IMG/VR virus record: IMGVR_UViG_3300048918_000196 | Span: 1 to 34,496 of that record | Strand: one strand, 5' to 3' | DNA length: 34,496 nucleotides | Source: a virus | Part shown: positions 1,220-31,853 of the stretch, piece after piece | Position numbering within the stretch: the first letter of the stretch is position 1 | Layout of the letters: the number at the start of each line of letters is the position of its first letter | Position numbers and translations under genes: made by a program | Notes under the pieces: generated by a model | The model's database searches: none | What the model saw: the letters and a program-made list of their open reading frames with translations, nothing else | Told to the model about the DNA's origin: nothing

Positions 1220-1615
1220 TTACTGGGTCCCTCCATCCAGCTGGCCGCAATGAGGGCAATAGGGGGAATCGTCTGGCTCCGCAGGGACTTCAGCATCCGC
1301 CCGTTTCGTGACCCACTCGGTGGTGTGGGGCATCATGAGTAGAGCCGAGTGCTGGAAGGTCGAATCAAGCAACTTACCCATGAGGTCACGCGCCCGAGCA
1401 TACAAATCGTCCGATGCACTTGGGAAGCGCGGGTAGTTGACCAGGCCAACCACAAACCCGACTTCCTCACCGCCCGTGTAGATGAACGTCGTAGGCTCAA
1501 TGGTTACACAAAGGCCCTGACGCATGCACTCCTGTCGTATGACGTGTTTTGCCACTTCGATTGGACCACTCATGTAAATACGGGCCCAGTATGTATCCGC
1601 CGAAATCAGTTTCAT
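1220..1615 (-). CDS. Hypothetical phage protein, 131 aa
   Basis: I do not recognise a family. The product begins MKLISADTYWARIYMSGPIE and ends with a short Cys motif (CPHCG), suggesting a C-terminal metal-binding knuckle. The ATG at 1615 is preferred over an upstream GTG-type extension because it has AAAGGGTGG in front of it and overlaps the stop of the upstream gene in an ATGA arrangement. Its own stop abuts the start of the PP-loop gene, so the two are probably translated together; co-occurrence is the only hint to function. Confidence 0.7.
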   Translation of the reverse strand: MKLISADTYWARIYMSGPIEVAKHVIRQECMRQGLCVTIEPTTFIYTGGEEVGFVVGLVNYPRFPSASDDLYARARDLMGKLLDSTFQHSALLMMPHTTEWVTKRADAEVPAEPDDSPYCPHCGQLDGGTQ

Positions 1616-1851
1616 CGCCCACCCTTTCCACAAAATAATCCGGAATTAGAGTATACGACTAACTGGGAAATTCCACAAACTAATCCGGAGAGCCGTTTTT
1701 TCGAACTGGCTTTCAAGGCGTTGAAGCGGTGAGCCAACGAATTCCACTCATCGACGAGCCGGTTATATTTCTGGATCTGCGCGCGCAGTCGCCCTTCGGC
1801 GTATTCAGCGCGCGCCTCGGCCTCCTTGAAACGTGAGCGCGTCACGAACAT
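1612..1851 (-). CDS. Small coiled-coil-like phage protein, 79 aa
   Basis: The first 50 residues (MFVTRSRFKEAEARAEYAEG onward) are charged and helical with heptad-like spacing, followed by a more hydrophobic tail containing the stretch LVCGISQLVVYS. The ATG at 1851 has AAAGGG about 8 nt upstream; the open frame extends further but has no ATG or GTG with a better site. It overlaps the next gene by 4 bp. Function unknown; small coiled-coil proteins of this kind are common in phage early operons. Confidence 0.6.
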   Translation of the reverse strand: MFVTRSRFKEAEARAEYAEGRLRAQIQKYNRLVDEWNSLAHRFNALKASSKKRLSGLVCGISQLVVYSNSGLFCGKGGR

Positions 1852-1900
1852 GGCAGCAGCCCTTTCTGTTTGAGGATCGAACGTGTCTGGTGCATCGTGA

Positions 1901-16055: not shown

Positions 16056-16529
16056 ATGAGCAACATGAATCGCACGCCGATGCCACTTGGAGGTGATAAG
16101 CCCTTCGAGCGTGCAGATAGCACCGTCTACCAGCTGATGCACCACGGCTGGATCAAAGGCGTCGAGCAGTTCCGCAATCGGATCTGGTTCAACGTCAATG
16201 TGGACCGTGAAAGCGGAATCAGCCGCGAGGAAGCCGCCGCCTTCATCGCCATCGCCTGCAACGCCTATAACGGCTTGATTGCCGGGAATGCCCAGCTGCG
16301 CGAAGACCTGTCCGACGCCCGCACCGGCTGGGAGCAGGCTACCGAGGCTGTGCGCGAGGCGGAAGCGGTGCGTGAGCAGCTGGTGGCGGCGCTGCGTAAA
16401 GCTCTCCAACTCACGGATATCGCATCCGATTGGGACCTCGACGAGGTTGAGATCGACGGTGAGATGGTCGAAACGAGCGATCTCCGCAAACAGTTCCGTG
16501 CCGCCCTTGCCGCAGCGGAGGCCGCATGA
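16056..16529 (+). CDS. Hypothetical phage protein with coiled coil, 157 aa
   Basis: The first half contains LMHHGWIKGVEQFRNRIWFN and REEAAAFIAIACNAYNGL. Residues 75-120 form a likely coiled coil (EQATEAVREAEAVREQLVAA), and the end is acidic then Ala-rich. The stop overlaps the next start (ATGA). Function unknown; similar coiled-coil accessory proteins are frequent beside recombination genes. Confidence 0.65.
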   Translation: MSNMNRTPMPLGGDKPFERADSTVYQLMHHGWIKGVEQFRNRIWFNVNVDRESGISREEAAAFIAIACNAYNGLIAGNAQLREDLSDARTGWEQATEAVREAEAVREQLVAALRKALQLTDIASDWDLDEVEIDGEMVETSDLRKQFRAALAAAEAA

Positions 16530-16771
16530 ACGCCATGAAGCAGACAGGCGGCGCCGCCTTCCCTGAATTGAAGGCGCTGTACAAGGAATCGATGTCAAGG
16601 TATTCGGCTGTTAGCGAGGGTGGGCTCACTGTACGTGACTACTTCGCGGCGAAGGTGCTGCAGGGCATTTGCGCCCATCCCGATACCTGGGGGATCGGCA
16701 CGAACGCCAAGATCGCCAGCGCGGCTTACGAGATCGCCGACGCAATGCTCGCTGTACGAGGTGCTGCATGA
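16526..16771 (+). CDS. Conserved small phage protein, 81 aa
   Basis: The protein has a GLTVRDYFAAKVLQG motif followed by AYEIADAMLAVR, a pattern shared by many small phage proteins of unknown role. It overlaps both neighbours by 4 bp, so it is translated as part of a coupled trio. Confidence 0.7.
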   Translation: MNAMKQTGGAAFPELKALYKESMSRYSAVSEGGLTVRDYFAAKVLQGICAHPDTWGIGTNAKIASAAYEIADAMLAVRGAA

Positions 16772-17115
16772 ACGCCCGCATGTCCGAAGAGGAATGGCGC
16801 GAAGCAAAGATCGGCGAGTTGAAGGAAAAGAACGCCGCCTACACGAAAGCGCTGATCGCGAAAGGCGACCCGAAGACGATCCACGACGTCGGCAATGACG
16901 TCGGCGACTACCTCGCGTTTGCTCAAGACGATCTGAACAAGCTTGTGACCGGCGCACTGACTTTCGAGCAGGTACGCGACAAGGTGATCGAAGCCGATGC
17001 TGAAGTTGCCGCGATCGAGCAGGTCGAGAAGATCGAAAAGGACCGCGAAGAACAGGCGCAGTGGGCACGTATCGAGCGCATGGCTTGGAATCGTGAGATT
17101 GGGTATCTGATCTAG
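16768..17115 (+). CDS. Hypothetical phage protein, 115 aa
   Basis: Starts MNARMSEEEWREAKIGELKE; mostly helical and acidic, with two likely coiled-coil stretches (IEQVEKIEKDREEQ). The ATG overlaps the previous stop. It is the last gene before the 516-bp hairpin-rich interval. No domain recognised. Confidence 0.6.
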   Translation: MNARMSEEEWREAKIGELKEKNAAYTKALIAKGDPKTIHDVGNDVGDYLAFAQDDLNKLVTGALTFEQVRDKVIEADAEVAAIEQVEKIEKDREEQAQWARIERMAWNREIGYLI

Positions 17116-17240
17116 CTGGACGGATCGCCGCGCACCGTATAACGCGCGGCTTGCCAAGCCCAGGTCAGAAACCGGGCGCCTACTCCGGGCACAGGAGCGC
17201 TCGAACTGCGTCAGGTTCCGCATGGCTCTCGTAAGGAGCC

Positions 17241-17338
17241 GCCACACGAAAGGCGTTGGACTAGCGGTCTAGGTCACGTATTCCCGGCGCCGGGTGACGC
17301 GAAACACAGGTTCGAATCCTGTACGCCTTTCGTGTGGC
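17241..17338 (+). ncRNA. tRNA-like element inside a 16-bp stem
   Basis: The acceptor stem AAGGCGT/ACGCCTT (17250-17256 with 17323-17329) is extended outward by nine more pairs (17241-17249 with 17330-17338), giving 16 perfect pairs. T8 and a D-arm follow (GACT/GGTC at 17259-17262 and 17272-17275, loop AGCGGTCTA with the conserved GG). The T-arm is canonical: ACAGG, loop TTCGAAT, CCTGT (17306-17322). The middle 30 nt (17276-17305) do not fold into a 5+7+5 anticodon arm but contain CCCG-GCGC-CGGG. No CCA end is encoded. It is therefore a tRNA mimic or decayed tRNA, not a normal decoding tRNA. Confidence 0.6.
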
Positions 17339-17499
17339 AGTCGCATGACCGTAGCCGCATGGCTAGTACCCATGCCCCGATATGCCCGGCACGAGTGTGC
17401 CAAGGATCGGGAGCCGCGAAAGTAGCCCGGCTTGCCACAGCCGAACCCACGCGCTGCGCGTGCTGCACCCACGACAGAAGTTCGGGGATGCGCGCAGCG

Positions 17500-17541
17500 G
17501 ACCCAGCCGGACGCCTGCTTAGGCTGGGTCGATTAGCAGGC
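17500..17541 (+). promoter_or_regulatory. Two mutually exclusive hairpins before the 126-aa gene
   Basis: GACCCAGCC (17500-17508) pairs with GGCTGGGTC (17522-17530). GCCTGCT (17513-17519) pairs with AGCAGGC (17535-17541). The second stem uses the loop of the first, so only one can form. Such switches occur in attenuators and riboswitch platforms. The start codon of the next gene is about 90 nt downstream. Confidence 0.45.
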
Positions 17542-17631
17542 CACCTGCCGCCCCGAGGGCGCGGCGCCGGACGAGAGTAACCGGCACCCTAACAACAACC
17601 GCCGGCGGCGCCGGCCAGAACGAGGAGCAGC

Positions 17632-18012
17632 ATGGACGTCACCTACATCGAGTTCCTGTACCCGGGAACCTTCTTCGCCGAGAGCGGTAGTCGGCGCGTG
17701 GAGCGACGCGAGTTGCCCGAGGCGATCCCCGGCCAGGCCACTGGCTACCGCTTCTTCACGCGCACCGAGGTCGACGTCGACGGCGAGAAGCTGGTCGGCC
17801 GGCCCAAGGATTACAGCGGCTGGACCTACTTCGGCAAGGAATACAGCGCCGAACAGGTGCAGGCCATGGCAGGGGAGCACGTCCGAATCCTCCGCGACAA
17901 CATGCGCATCAACGGTTGGACGCGCGTTGTCCAGACGGCGTACGGCCAGTGGTATCCGCTGACCGACGGTGACGTCGTGGTTCCGGATGCCGACATGGAG
18001 CGTGCGCAATGA
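17632..18012 (+). CDS. Hypothetical phage protein, 126 aa
   Basis: A mixed alpha/beta protein starting MDVTYIEFLYPGTFFAESGS with GWTYFGKEYSAEQV and QTAYGQWYPLTDGDVV later. GAGGAG lies five bases upstream of the ATG. It follows the structured interval and would be controlled by it if the competing hairpins are real. Family not recognised, though the SGRVxxRE-type opening is common in phage accessory proteins. Confidence 0.65.
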   Translation: MDVTYIEFLYPGTFFAESGSRRVERRELPEAIPGQATGYRFFTRTEVDVDGEKLVGRPKDYSGWTYFGKEYSAEQVQAMAGEHVRILRDNMRINGWTRVVQTAYGQWYPLTDGDVVVPDADMERAQ

Positions 18013-18185
18013 CCGCCTCCCGCATCGCTCGCCGCCAGGAGCAGGCCGAGCCAGCAACGCGCCGCGACGTCATCGGATCGCTGCTGTTCTGGAAGCTGGA
18101 CTTTTTTGAGGCTAACCCGCTGATCTGCTTTGCGGGCTTGGTGATGACGATTGTGCTGTCGTCGGTTCTCGAAAGGTTGCCATGA
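18009..18185 (+). CDS. Small membrane protein, 58 aa
   Basis: The start overlaps the previous stop (ATGA) and the stop overlaps the next start. The N-terminal 22 residues are charged and probably cytoplasmic; residues 36-55 (NPLICFAGLVMTIVLSSVL) form one transmembrane helix. Function unknown. Confidence 0.55.
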   Translation: MTASRIARRQEQAEPATRRDVIGSLLFWKLDFFEANPLICFAGLVMTIVLSSVLERLP

Positions 18186-18484
18186 GCATTACTAAATACA
18201 AGACGAAGTGGAGTAAGAACAGCATCGAGCGCGTGGAAGTGCTGCGCGAAACTGAGGCTTTTGTCTACGTTTCAACGGATGGTTGGACGAAGTCCGGAAA
18301 GGGTGAGCGACGCGAGGCGAAGCTCGGTGAGTTTGCCCAGTACCACAACACATGGGCTGACGCGCACGCATATTTGATGGCTGATGCTGAAAATTCAGTA
18401 ACCCATGCGCGCAATAGGCTTGAACAAGCCAAAGGACACCTAGGAAACATCAAGGGCATGAAGCCGCCAAAGGAAGCGCCGTGA
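18182..18484 (+). CDS. Hypothetical phage protein, 100 aa
   Basis: Begins MSITKYKTKWSKNSIERVEV with a beta-like half (FVYVSTDGWTKSG) and a helical second half (NTWADAHAYLMADAENSVTH). This resembles small phage proteins in which a KI..VEVxRET.. strand region precedes a W..A..YL helix. It overlaps both neighbours. No function can be given. Confidence 0.65.
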   Translation: MSITKYKTKWSKNSIERVEVLRETEAFVYVSTDGWTKSGKGERREAKLGEFAQYHNTWADAHAYLMADAENSVTHARNRLEQAKGHLGNIKGMKPPKEAP

Positions 18485-30442: not shown

Positions 30443-31675
30443 CTACACTGTGTAGACTTCGCGCTCTTCCGGCGTAGCGACGCAGGCCTTACCAAGCCTA
30501 GCGCGCACCTCCTGGATCGGCAATACACGGCGCCCGACCTCGCCATATGTCTTGGACCGCAGCACGATCGTGATCGACTTCCGATTCCGGTATCCAGCGT
30601 CGTGTGCCCACTTGTCGAGCGCCGCCAGATGGTTGAATGACTCGACGAAGATGCCGGGATGCTCCTTCATCACCATGCCGTGGTGCACATGTCCGATGTC
30701 CACGTAATGAAATTCCGTCTCTCCGTAATCCTTCCGGTAGTCGGTCGTCATCACGTGCGCCAGTTGCTGCGGTCGGCACTTGTCCGAATGGTGCGTCATC
30801 ACCAGCGTATTACCCATGCGGTAGGCGATGAACACCGAGTCGTTGTTGAGCACATGGACTCGACCCGTGTGTCCATAGGCTACCCGAAGCAGTTCCGCCA
30901 TCCAGATATCGTTCGTGCGGCTGTGGTTGCCCTGGTTGACGATGACGTCAACGTGCCGAGCCTTCGTCAGCGCCTTTTCGACGATGAAGCGCATAACCCT
31001 GGAATAGACCTTGATCATCTTCGGGAAGCGCGTGTCGCAGTCGAGTCTATGTTTGCTGGCTTGAGTTTCGCCTTCGAAATTCTCGAAGTGAGTGGCGTCG
31101 CCGAGATCGTTGATGACCAGGCGCTCACAGGACGGCAACTCGTCGATCAGGATGCCGATCGCGGCACACAGTTCCTGCTCGGCGATCTTGAGGTCAAAGT
31201 TCTCGCCCACCTCGCTTGCATGGGCGAGCATTCCCAGATGGGCGTCCCCGATTTGGATCCACGGTATGACGTCTGACTGGAAGTCGAGCGGCGCCGGCGG
31301 CGCTTGGATTGAGCCGACATCTTCGATAAAGCCATTGATCGCCTCGCGTATGATTTCGCGCTGCCGTTCCAGATCGATCGCCGACTTGACCCACTGCCCC
31401 GTGGGATTCCCGTTCTTGTCGTAATACGTCGATACGCCTTTGACCAGAAACCCGTCTGGCACGATGTGCGTCATGTCGTGCGCCGGCGAGTAACCCTGAC
31501 GCGCCGCCGATTTTTCGACACGATCGAGCGCCGCGCAGATCGTGCCTTTGCTCACGCCCAGCGCACGTGATGCCGGCCGGATGCCACCGTGCTCTATCAC
31601 GGCATCGAGGTACAGGGCTTGCTGGGGTGTAGCGAACTGACGCAGTTGCGGGTCGTATTTGCGAGCTTCGGTCAT
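30443..31675 (-). CDS. HTH-metallophosphoesterase phage protein, 410 aa
   Basis: Residues 15-60 form an HTH (TPQQALYLDAVIEHGGIRPA, then SRALGVSKGTICAALDRVE). The rest is a calcineurin-type phosphoesterase: GDAHLG (Asp144, His146), LGDATHFE (191-198), GNHSR (249-253), MTHHSD (293-298) and GHVHHG (328-333), all five metal-site motifs. Such proteins occur in many tailed phages near packaging or lysis genes and are often labelled oxidoreductase without evidence. Probable nuclease or phosphatase. ATG at 31675 has GAGG six bases before. Confidence 0.8.
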   Translation of the reverse strand: MTEARKYDPQLRQFATPQQALYLDAVIEHGGIRPASRALGVSKGTICAALDRVEKSAARQGYSPAHDMTHIVPDGFLVKGVSTYYDKNGNPTGQWVKSAIDLERQREIIREAINGFIEDVGSIQAPPAPLDFQSDVIPWIQIGDAHLGMLAHASEVGENFDLKIAEQELCAAIGILIDELPSCERLVINDLGDATHFENFEGETQASKHRLDCDTRFPKMIKVYSRVMRFIVEKALTKARHVDVIVNQGNHSRTNDIWMAELLRVAYGHTGRVHVLNNDSVFIAYRMGNTLVMTHHSDKCRPQQLAHVMTTDYRKDYGETEFHYVDIGHVHHGMVMKEHPGIFVESFNHLAALDKWAHDAGYRNRKSITIVLRSKTYGEVGRRVLPIQEVRARLGKACVATPEEREVYTV

Positions 31676-31682
31676 GCGTACC

Positions 31683-31853
31683 TCACGAGTTGATGCGTGC
31701 CTGCACCAGGGCGAGCAATTCCGCATCGTTGGCTGTGGCGCGGATATCGTCGGCCCATATCGGCACGCACCCGCGAGTTTCGGTCTTGACGACGTAGAAA
31801 AGCGCGCCCGGCTCTAAAGCAAAGGCGCGCATTTTCCGCAGCAGTTCGTCCAT
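31683..31853 (-). CDS. Small phage protein, 56 aa
   Basis: Starts MDELLRKMRAFALEPGALFY and has a short beta part (TRGCVPIWADDIRAT). It begins two bases after the Rz stop without a good ribosome-binding site, so it probably depends on coupling. Function unknown. Confidence 0.5.
   Translation of the reverse strand: MDELLRKMRAFALEPGALFYVVKTETRGCVPIWADDIRATANDAELLALVQARINS

Follow-up and report, generated by a model that had tools for sequence, protein, structure and literature searches.

Positions 17116-17631 of the window, by which we mean the whole 34,496-nt stretch of soil-phage DNA from an IMG/VR virus record that was analyzed here, raise the question of why 516 bp are left open among tightly packed genes. 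The genes upstream (16056-16529, 16526-16771 and 16768-17115) and downstream (17632-18012, 18009-18185 and 18182-18484) each overlap by 4 bp, in agreement with the original prediction, which had noted overlaps of a few bases on both sides of this gap and had proposed that it may hold a large structured phage RNA belonging to a new class. The interval is located within a RecT/RecE/HNH gene cluster and the phage carries an integrase; the presence of an integrase together with RecT/RecE-type recombination genes suggests that this phage is probably temperate. A protein-coding function of the interval was ruled out, as stops are found in all frames and no frame is kept; across 42 relatives, stops break the three reading frames in 40, 36 and 40 units, respectively. 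A protein family spanning the interval, which had been named as a finding that would speak against an RNA, is thus not found here.

Comparison with related sequences shows, as far as sequence can, that the RNA encoded here is structured and modular and belongs to phages of Undibacterium's family, and we consider it nearly certain that the structured RNA family is genuine. The predicted layout is a small hairpin, a 15-22-bp stem that bears a tip, and a conserved core ending in a repeat of the 5' strand of the tip stem. The features of the window are as follows:

17116-17631, + strand: whole intercistronic interval, which contains the RNA (from gene calls and folding energy)
17116-17223, + strand: 5' domain, with a hairpin (17127-17133/17144-17150) and then a CTTGCC..GGTCAGAAA stretch
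17224-17240, + strand: P0 hairpin, GGCTCTCGTAAGGAGCC, immediately 5' of the tip stem
17241-17256, + strand: 5' strand of the tip stem; its outer GCCACAC is J, complementary to J'
17250-17329, + strand: tRNA-like tip (from ARAGORN, the Rfam tRNA model and arm geometry)
17323-17338, + strand: 3' strand of the tip stem; its outer GTGTGGC (17332-17338) is J', predicted to pair with either copy of J
17342-17430, + strand: conserved core, CGCATGACYGnAnCnG ... GYGAAGGTAGCCCGG
17357-17375, + strand: core hairpin P2, GCATGG-CTAGTAC-CCATGC, with a conserved loop and a covarying stem
17376-17411, + strand: core stem-loop P3, whose sequence and length differ among relatives
17434-17439, + strand: second copy of J, GCCACA, predicted to pair with J' and close the core
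17500-17540, + strand: 3' domain with a possible H-type pseudoknot (17500-17508/17522-17530 and 17514-17519/17535-17540)
17601-17627, + strand: leader hairpin GCCGGCGGCGCCGGC and ribosome-binding site of the gene at 17632; the GC-rich leader hairpin AACCGCCGGCGGCGCCGGCCAGA spans 17597-17619

Folding of the interval as RNA yielded -241.6 kcal/mol, compared to -220.6 +/- 6.4 kcal/mol for 100 dinucleotide shuffles (z = -3.27; none of the 100 was as good), and the P0 hairpin and tip alone (17224-17338) gave a folding z of -5.7. The stems that had been described as abutting at 17375/17376 were found as such: P2 ends at 17375, and CCCGAT (17376-17381) opens the stem that follows. For the possible pseudoknot in the 3' domain, two pairs are altered on both sides in one relative, L043 (read by eye). 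Another pseudoknot, 17441-17446/17480-17485 with 17452-17460/17491-17499, is possible but was set aside, as a local hairpin competes with it and L043 gives no support.

Relatives were collected from IMG/VR phage contigs (designated by L numbers) with two DNA patterns and then with the core pattern CGCATGACYGNANCNGNNNGGNTAGWACCC, which yielded 46 viral contigs representing 38 distinct cores. Among phages that share the downstream gene, a comparable gap was present in L001 (near-identical), L002, L003 and partly in L005, and was not found beside this gene in L004 and L006; the gap-bearing relatives have in common a long CCACAC...GTGTGG stem, inside which the sequence differs. The 5' domain is shared with L049 and L043, is partly found in L002, L005, L056, L072, L081, L083 and L084, and is absent elsewhere, and relatives carry a hairpin of different sequence at the P0 position. 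In whole phage records, a covariance model of the core identified one strong copy (83+ bits) in each of 29 records, including the window, and no copy in the L046 record. All second matches in whole records scored at most 18 bits, among them one in the window (31622-31689, minus strand, 18 bits) that was treated as chance.

Of 393 genomes from the family to which Undibacterium umbellatum belongs, 6 carried prophage copies (51-86 bits), and the sole match among 369 genomes from the wider class was the same U. umbellatum genome. One copy, L142, is present in the cultured strain U. umbellatum NL8W. The exact core pattern had no match across the genome contigs, and a looser pattern identified 26 loci with chance-level scores, with a true copy present elsewhere in one of these genomes. 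As cultured bacteria carry prophage copies, the family is accessible to experiments. Blast searches of GenBank phages with the interval, L002, L003, L050 and one lone core returned only short T-arm or chance stretches, such that the nucleotide search against phage genomes that had been proposed as a check found relatives in IMG/VR contigs and none in GenBank phages. The Rfam search proposed alongside it gave, for the interval, only the tRNA model above cut-off; no Rfam 15 family matched the scaffold, and the matches consisted of tRNA-type matches to the tips plus weak or distant others. The GOLLD and ROOL models had no match at the gathering score, nor at E values up to 5 in 17000-17700, in line with the earlier statement that the interval could not be matched to either, and identities with GOLLD, ROOL, Y RNA, c4 antisense RNA and M23 were rejected, with no match or chance-level scores. 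No description of such an RNA was found in the literature covered (open-access papers and a few preprints).

Evidence for conservation of structure comes mainly from P2, a 6-bp stem with the loop CUAGUAC. Its covariation was 0.583, compared to 0.158 +/- 0.024 after shuffling (0 of 500 shuffles as high); while the core search pattern partly fixed the three invariant pairs of this stem, the three variable pairs were left free, and in these 61 cells are altered on both sides. Pairing was preserved in 97.8% of cells and in at most 52% when the partner was slid by one column. A lack of compensatory changes among homologues, which had been named as grounds for dropping the RNA, is therefore not what was observed, with changes in P2 far above both the shuffled and the slid controls. 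P2 was the sole helix that RNAalifold detected among the relatives; the helix that closes the core was missed because it shifts position between sequences, and it was assessed by permutation in place of RNAalifold. For the tip stem, 34 of 38 cases scored higher than the best shuffled value, 24 (null n = 304). G-T oppositions in the stems outnumber A-C oppositions (21 vs 7; p = 0.013, with scoring neutral to both), so that the gene-sense strand is probably the one that folds. The compensatory changes, the preference of the closing helix for its own partner (see below), the absence of a conserved reading frame and the unmatched scaffold support the proposal that this large structured phage RNA represents a new class.

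Two features were overlooked in the original prediction. The tRNA-like fold rests on a stem of 16 perfect base pairs (17241-17256 with 17323-17338), whose outer strand recurs at 17434-17439, after the core. J', located between tip and core, can therefore pair either with the 5' strand of the tip stem or with the copy after the core. Across relatives, J' matched its own 3' J with a mean of 16.8, compared to 12.6 for permuted partners (0 of 20,000 permutations as high), and J' types such as GTGTGG, GTGTTGG, GATGG and GGCGTT each have a fitting partner in the same member. An exception is L022, whose downstream copy of J fails to match J'. Two relatives that lack a tip, L075 and L146, keep J', the core and the closing strand, which indicates that the scaffold includes the closing helix and that the tip adds a competing strand. 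These core-only members show, at the level of sequence comparison, that the scaffold can stand alone. In L003 (about 1501-1720) and also in L048, the tip stem and closing strand are kept with a different core between them.

The tip itself is hypervariable, with a length of about 60-185 nt. Among pairs with a core identity of at least 0.88, tip identity was below 0.6 in 40 of 43, where shuffled tips average 0.44. The clearest swap is between the window and L049, which have an identical P0, cores that are 99% identical and tips that are 53% identical. Conversely, the same tip is found on three differing cores (L055, L071 and L084); L001 and L020, L031 and L049, and L023 and L062 each share a tip on different cores; and the tip of the window is 85% identical to that of L020, with cores that are 63% identical. 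These comparisons show that the tip moves as a cassette among scaffolds that are otherwise nearly identical. Tandem units with the same plan and other cores were also observed, in L074 (6567-7294), L078 (about 1500-1860, reverse strand) and L143 (about 1250-1400); in the second unit of L074, a tRNA-like module occupies the position of the core.

The tRNA-like fold that had been noticed in the middle of the interval was also identified by ARAGORN, which called 17250-17331 as tRNA-Gly(TCC), and by the Rfam tRNA model (39.2 bits). The tip of the window has the geometry of a tRNA in its acceptor (7 bp, 17250-17256/17323-17329), D-arm (17259-17275, GACT AGCGGTCTA GGTC) and T-arm (17306-17322, ACAGGTTCGAATCCTGT), and positions 17276-17305 take the place of an ordinary anticodon arm. 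A canonical T-arm (5 bp, TTCRANY loop) sits flush on the stem in seven distinct tips (window, L020, L041, L056, L060, L072 and L080), of which six have a complete 7-bp acceptor and one, L041, has 5 of 7 pairs. The window, L020, L041 and L060 also have a D-arm of 4 bp, its loop containing GG, exactly 2 nt past the acceptor. In all seven tips, the ordinary anticodon arm is absent or substituted by other, often longer sequence; no 5-bp/7-nt arm was found at the anticodon place in the window, L020 and L060, and L041 has a hairpin with an 8-nt loop near this place. Four further tips (L002, L053, L074 and L081) carry a 5-bp hairpin with an 8-nt loop at the T-arm place, and the majority of tips have no recognizable likeness to tRNA. 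No free CCA end is encoded at the tip of the window, where the acceptor continues into the 16-bp stem; this stem buries the acceptor end in the fold of lowest energy, and in the alternative fold the 3' side of the acceptor remains paired. In L145, the core is followed directly by a tRNA-like gene that has a CCA end and an unusual anticodon loop.

An ordinary phage tRNA-Gly(TCC) gene amid unrelated hairpins would account for the scores from ARAGORN and the Rfam tRNA model, but is hardly credible: the ARAGORN gene call was rejected for the missing 5-bp/7-nt anticodon arm and for an acceptor that runs unbroken to 16 bp with no CCA end, and the tips found at this position in relatives are unrelated. 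A DNA-level element, i.e., a recombination, replication or packaging site whose inverted repeats work as DNA, fits the perfect repeats and the exchange of cassettes at short shared sequences; however, the excess of G-T over A-C shows strand asymmetry, and the precise geometry of the D-arm and T-arm, like the conserved loop flanked by covarying strands, is characteristic of RNA, making this explanation very improbable. The core could also be ribozyme-like, cutting or rejoining RNA such that the tip is released or circularized as cargo. Many unpaired bases are invariant (CGCATGAC, CTAGTAC and GTAGCCCG), although this invariance is partly a product of the search pattern, and a guide-like strand with two similar partners is what strand exchange requires, but Rfam ribozyme and intron families were unmatched and a cut site cannot be named; we regard this reading as improbable.

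The element is flanked by a stop codon and the start codon that follows, and in many members neither codon is more than 60 nt away. The core often ends 20-75 nt upstream of a start codon, which is consistent with a cis-acting leader switch in which the pairing choice of J' opens or closes something near the downstream ribosome-binding site. Riboswitches and T-box leaders likewise have mutually exclusive helices ahead of a gene, and the three-strand complementarity is real. However, the downstream ORFs fall into 34 clusters among 41 (upstream proteins, 26 clusters among 38), which argues against control of one particular gene by the element; the constant class of downstream gene that characterizes a riboswitch was thus not found, and the binding module, unlike that of riboswitches and T-boxes, is replaced wholesale between relatives, for which a cis switch has no need. 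In addition, the J strands do not contain the ribosome-binding site and the competitor strand is absent from core-only members, such that a cis switch seems unlikely. The leader hairpin in front of the gene at 17632 is present once in the window; in many related phages it precedes unrelated genes, with the RNA present or absent, and it is found in L004 and L005, which lack the core. Somewhat less unlikely, although still doubtful, is a structural or compartment-forming RNA of the GOLLD/ROOL type, in which the scaffold perhaps oligomerizes and a variable linker holds tRNA-like or other cargo. The large size, the multiple domains, the location in phages, the possible pseudoknot in the 3' domain and the tandem units in L074, L078 and L143 fit such an RNA; the Rfam models for GOLLD and ROOL are unmatched, however, the conserved core of about 90 nt is far below GOLLD/ROOL size, and wholesale exchange of tips or cassettes has, to our knowledge, not been described for GOLLD or ROOL. 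In GOLLD, the 3' part is conserved, the 5' part is variable and a tRNA is sometimes found inside the linker (PMC12286853). The present RNA resembles GOLLD and ROOL in being phage-borne, noncoding, multi-domain and without an assigned function, with GOLLD nearest in kind, but differs from both in its smaller conserved core, its cassette tip and its anticodon-less tRNA-like tips in place of tRNA genes.

We tentatively favor, with somewhat less than even confidence, a phage RNA that acts in trans, displaying to host proteins a module that is changeable and often mimics tRNA. The scaffold, comprising the P0 hairpin, the core with its CUAGUAC hairpin and the closing strand, would be a stable, recognizable holder, and the tip a displayed ligand or decoy for host RNA-binding proteins. 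Several tips would target proteins that grip the tRNA elbow, i.e., tRNA-processing or tRNA-modifying enzymes or defense nucleases that attack tRNA. If J' pairs with the 5' copy of J, the tip stem would form a closed helix of 16 bp; if it pairs with the 3' copy, the core would close and the outer 7-9 bp would open, leaving a 7-9-bp acceptor with a free 5' leader. As the opened tip would have the form of a tRNA precursor, RNase P or another protein that binds the tRNA elbow may be a candidate partner. No promoter-like site was seen near the element, and the RNA would therefore need to be excised from the operon transcript. Reasoned from shape and turnover, a decoy role in conflict with the host is plausible given how fast tip cassettes exchange, and this quick turnover would mirror an arms race or shifting targets. 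The more specific proposal of an RNA display system, with swappable tips, many of them tRNA mimics without an anticodon arm, that engage or block host or defense proteins and a strand-exchange switch that toggles between a closed and a precursor-like tip, is possible but should be considered speculative.

Other RNAs share parts of this plan. The tmRNA and the tRNA-like structures at viral 3' ends have a partial tRNA fold without a normal anticodon arm, as seen here, but the present RNA has no free CCA-type end and no tag frame, and its acceptor forms part of a long stem. The Y RNAs of bacteria (YrlA), which have also been reported in phages, are noncoding RNAs with a tRNA-like domain and hence also bear a tRNA-mimicking module; here, in contrast, the tip is variable and mostly not tRNA-like, and there is no Rfam match. 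The Ro/TROVE protein (PF05731) was absent from 27 phage records in a search that covered phage-encoded proteins and found its positive control. A constant scaffold with swapped tips is familiar in proteins, such as Rhs/CDI toxins and tail fibers, and we know of no RNA counterpart. We rate an RNA class with swappable modules as categorically new, while a cautious reader may see a variant of the large phage RNAs. If the tips mimic tRNAs in order to occupy host proteins, the family would represent a catalog of baits, which could reveal tRNA-targeting defenses or host factors that are as yet unknown.

Two further elements were observed in related phages. In the phage of L022, a match to Rfam RF02932 (Betaproteobacteria-1 RNA), just over the cut-off, is located upstream of the element on the opposite strand (L113, 2459-2589). 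A second sequence-conserved hairpin RNA of 104 nt (GTTACAAGAGAGTC...GACTCCCTTGTAAC), immediately preceded by a small hairpin of its own, was found in at least 8 phages and not in the window; its sites are L083 180-283, L068 2111-2214, L056 4211-4314 and L055 1866-1969, and it is also present in L041, L058, L062 and L082 (minus strand).
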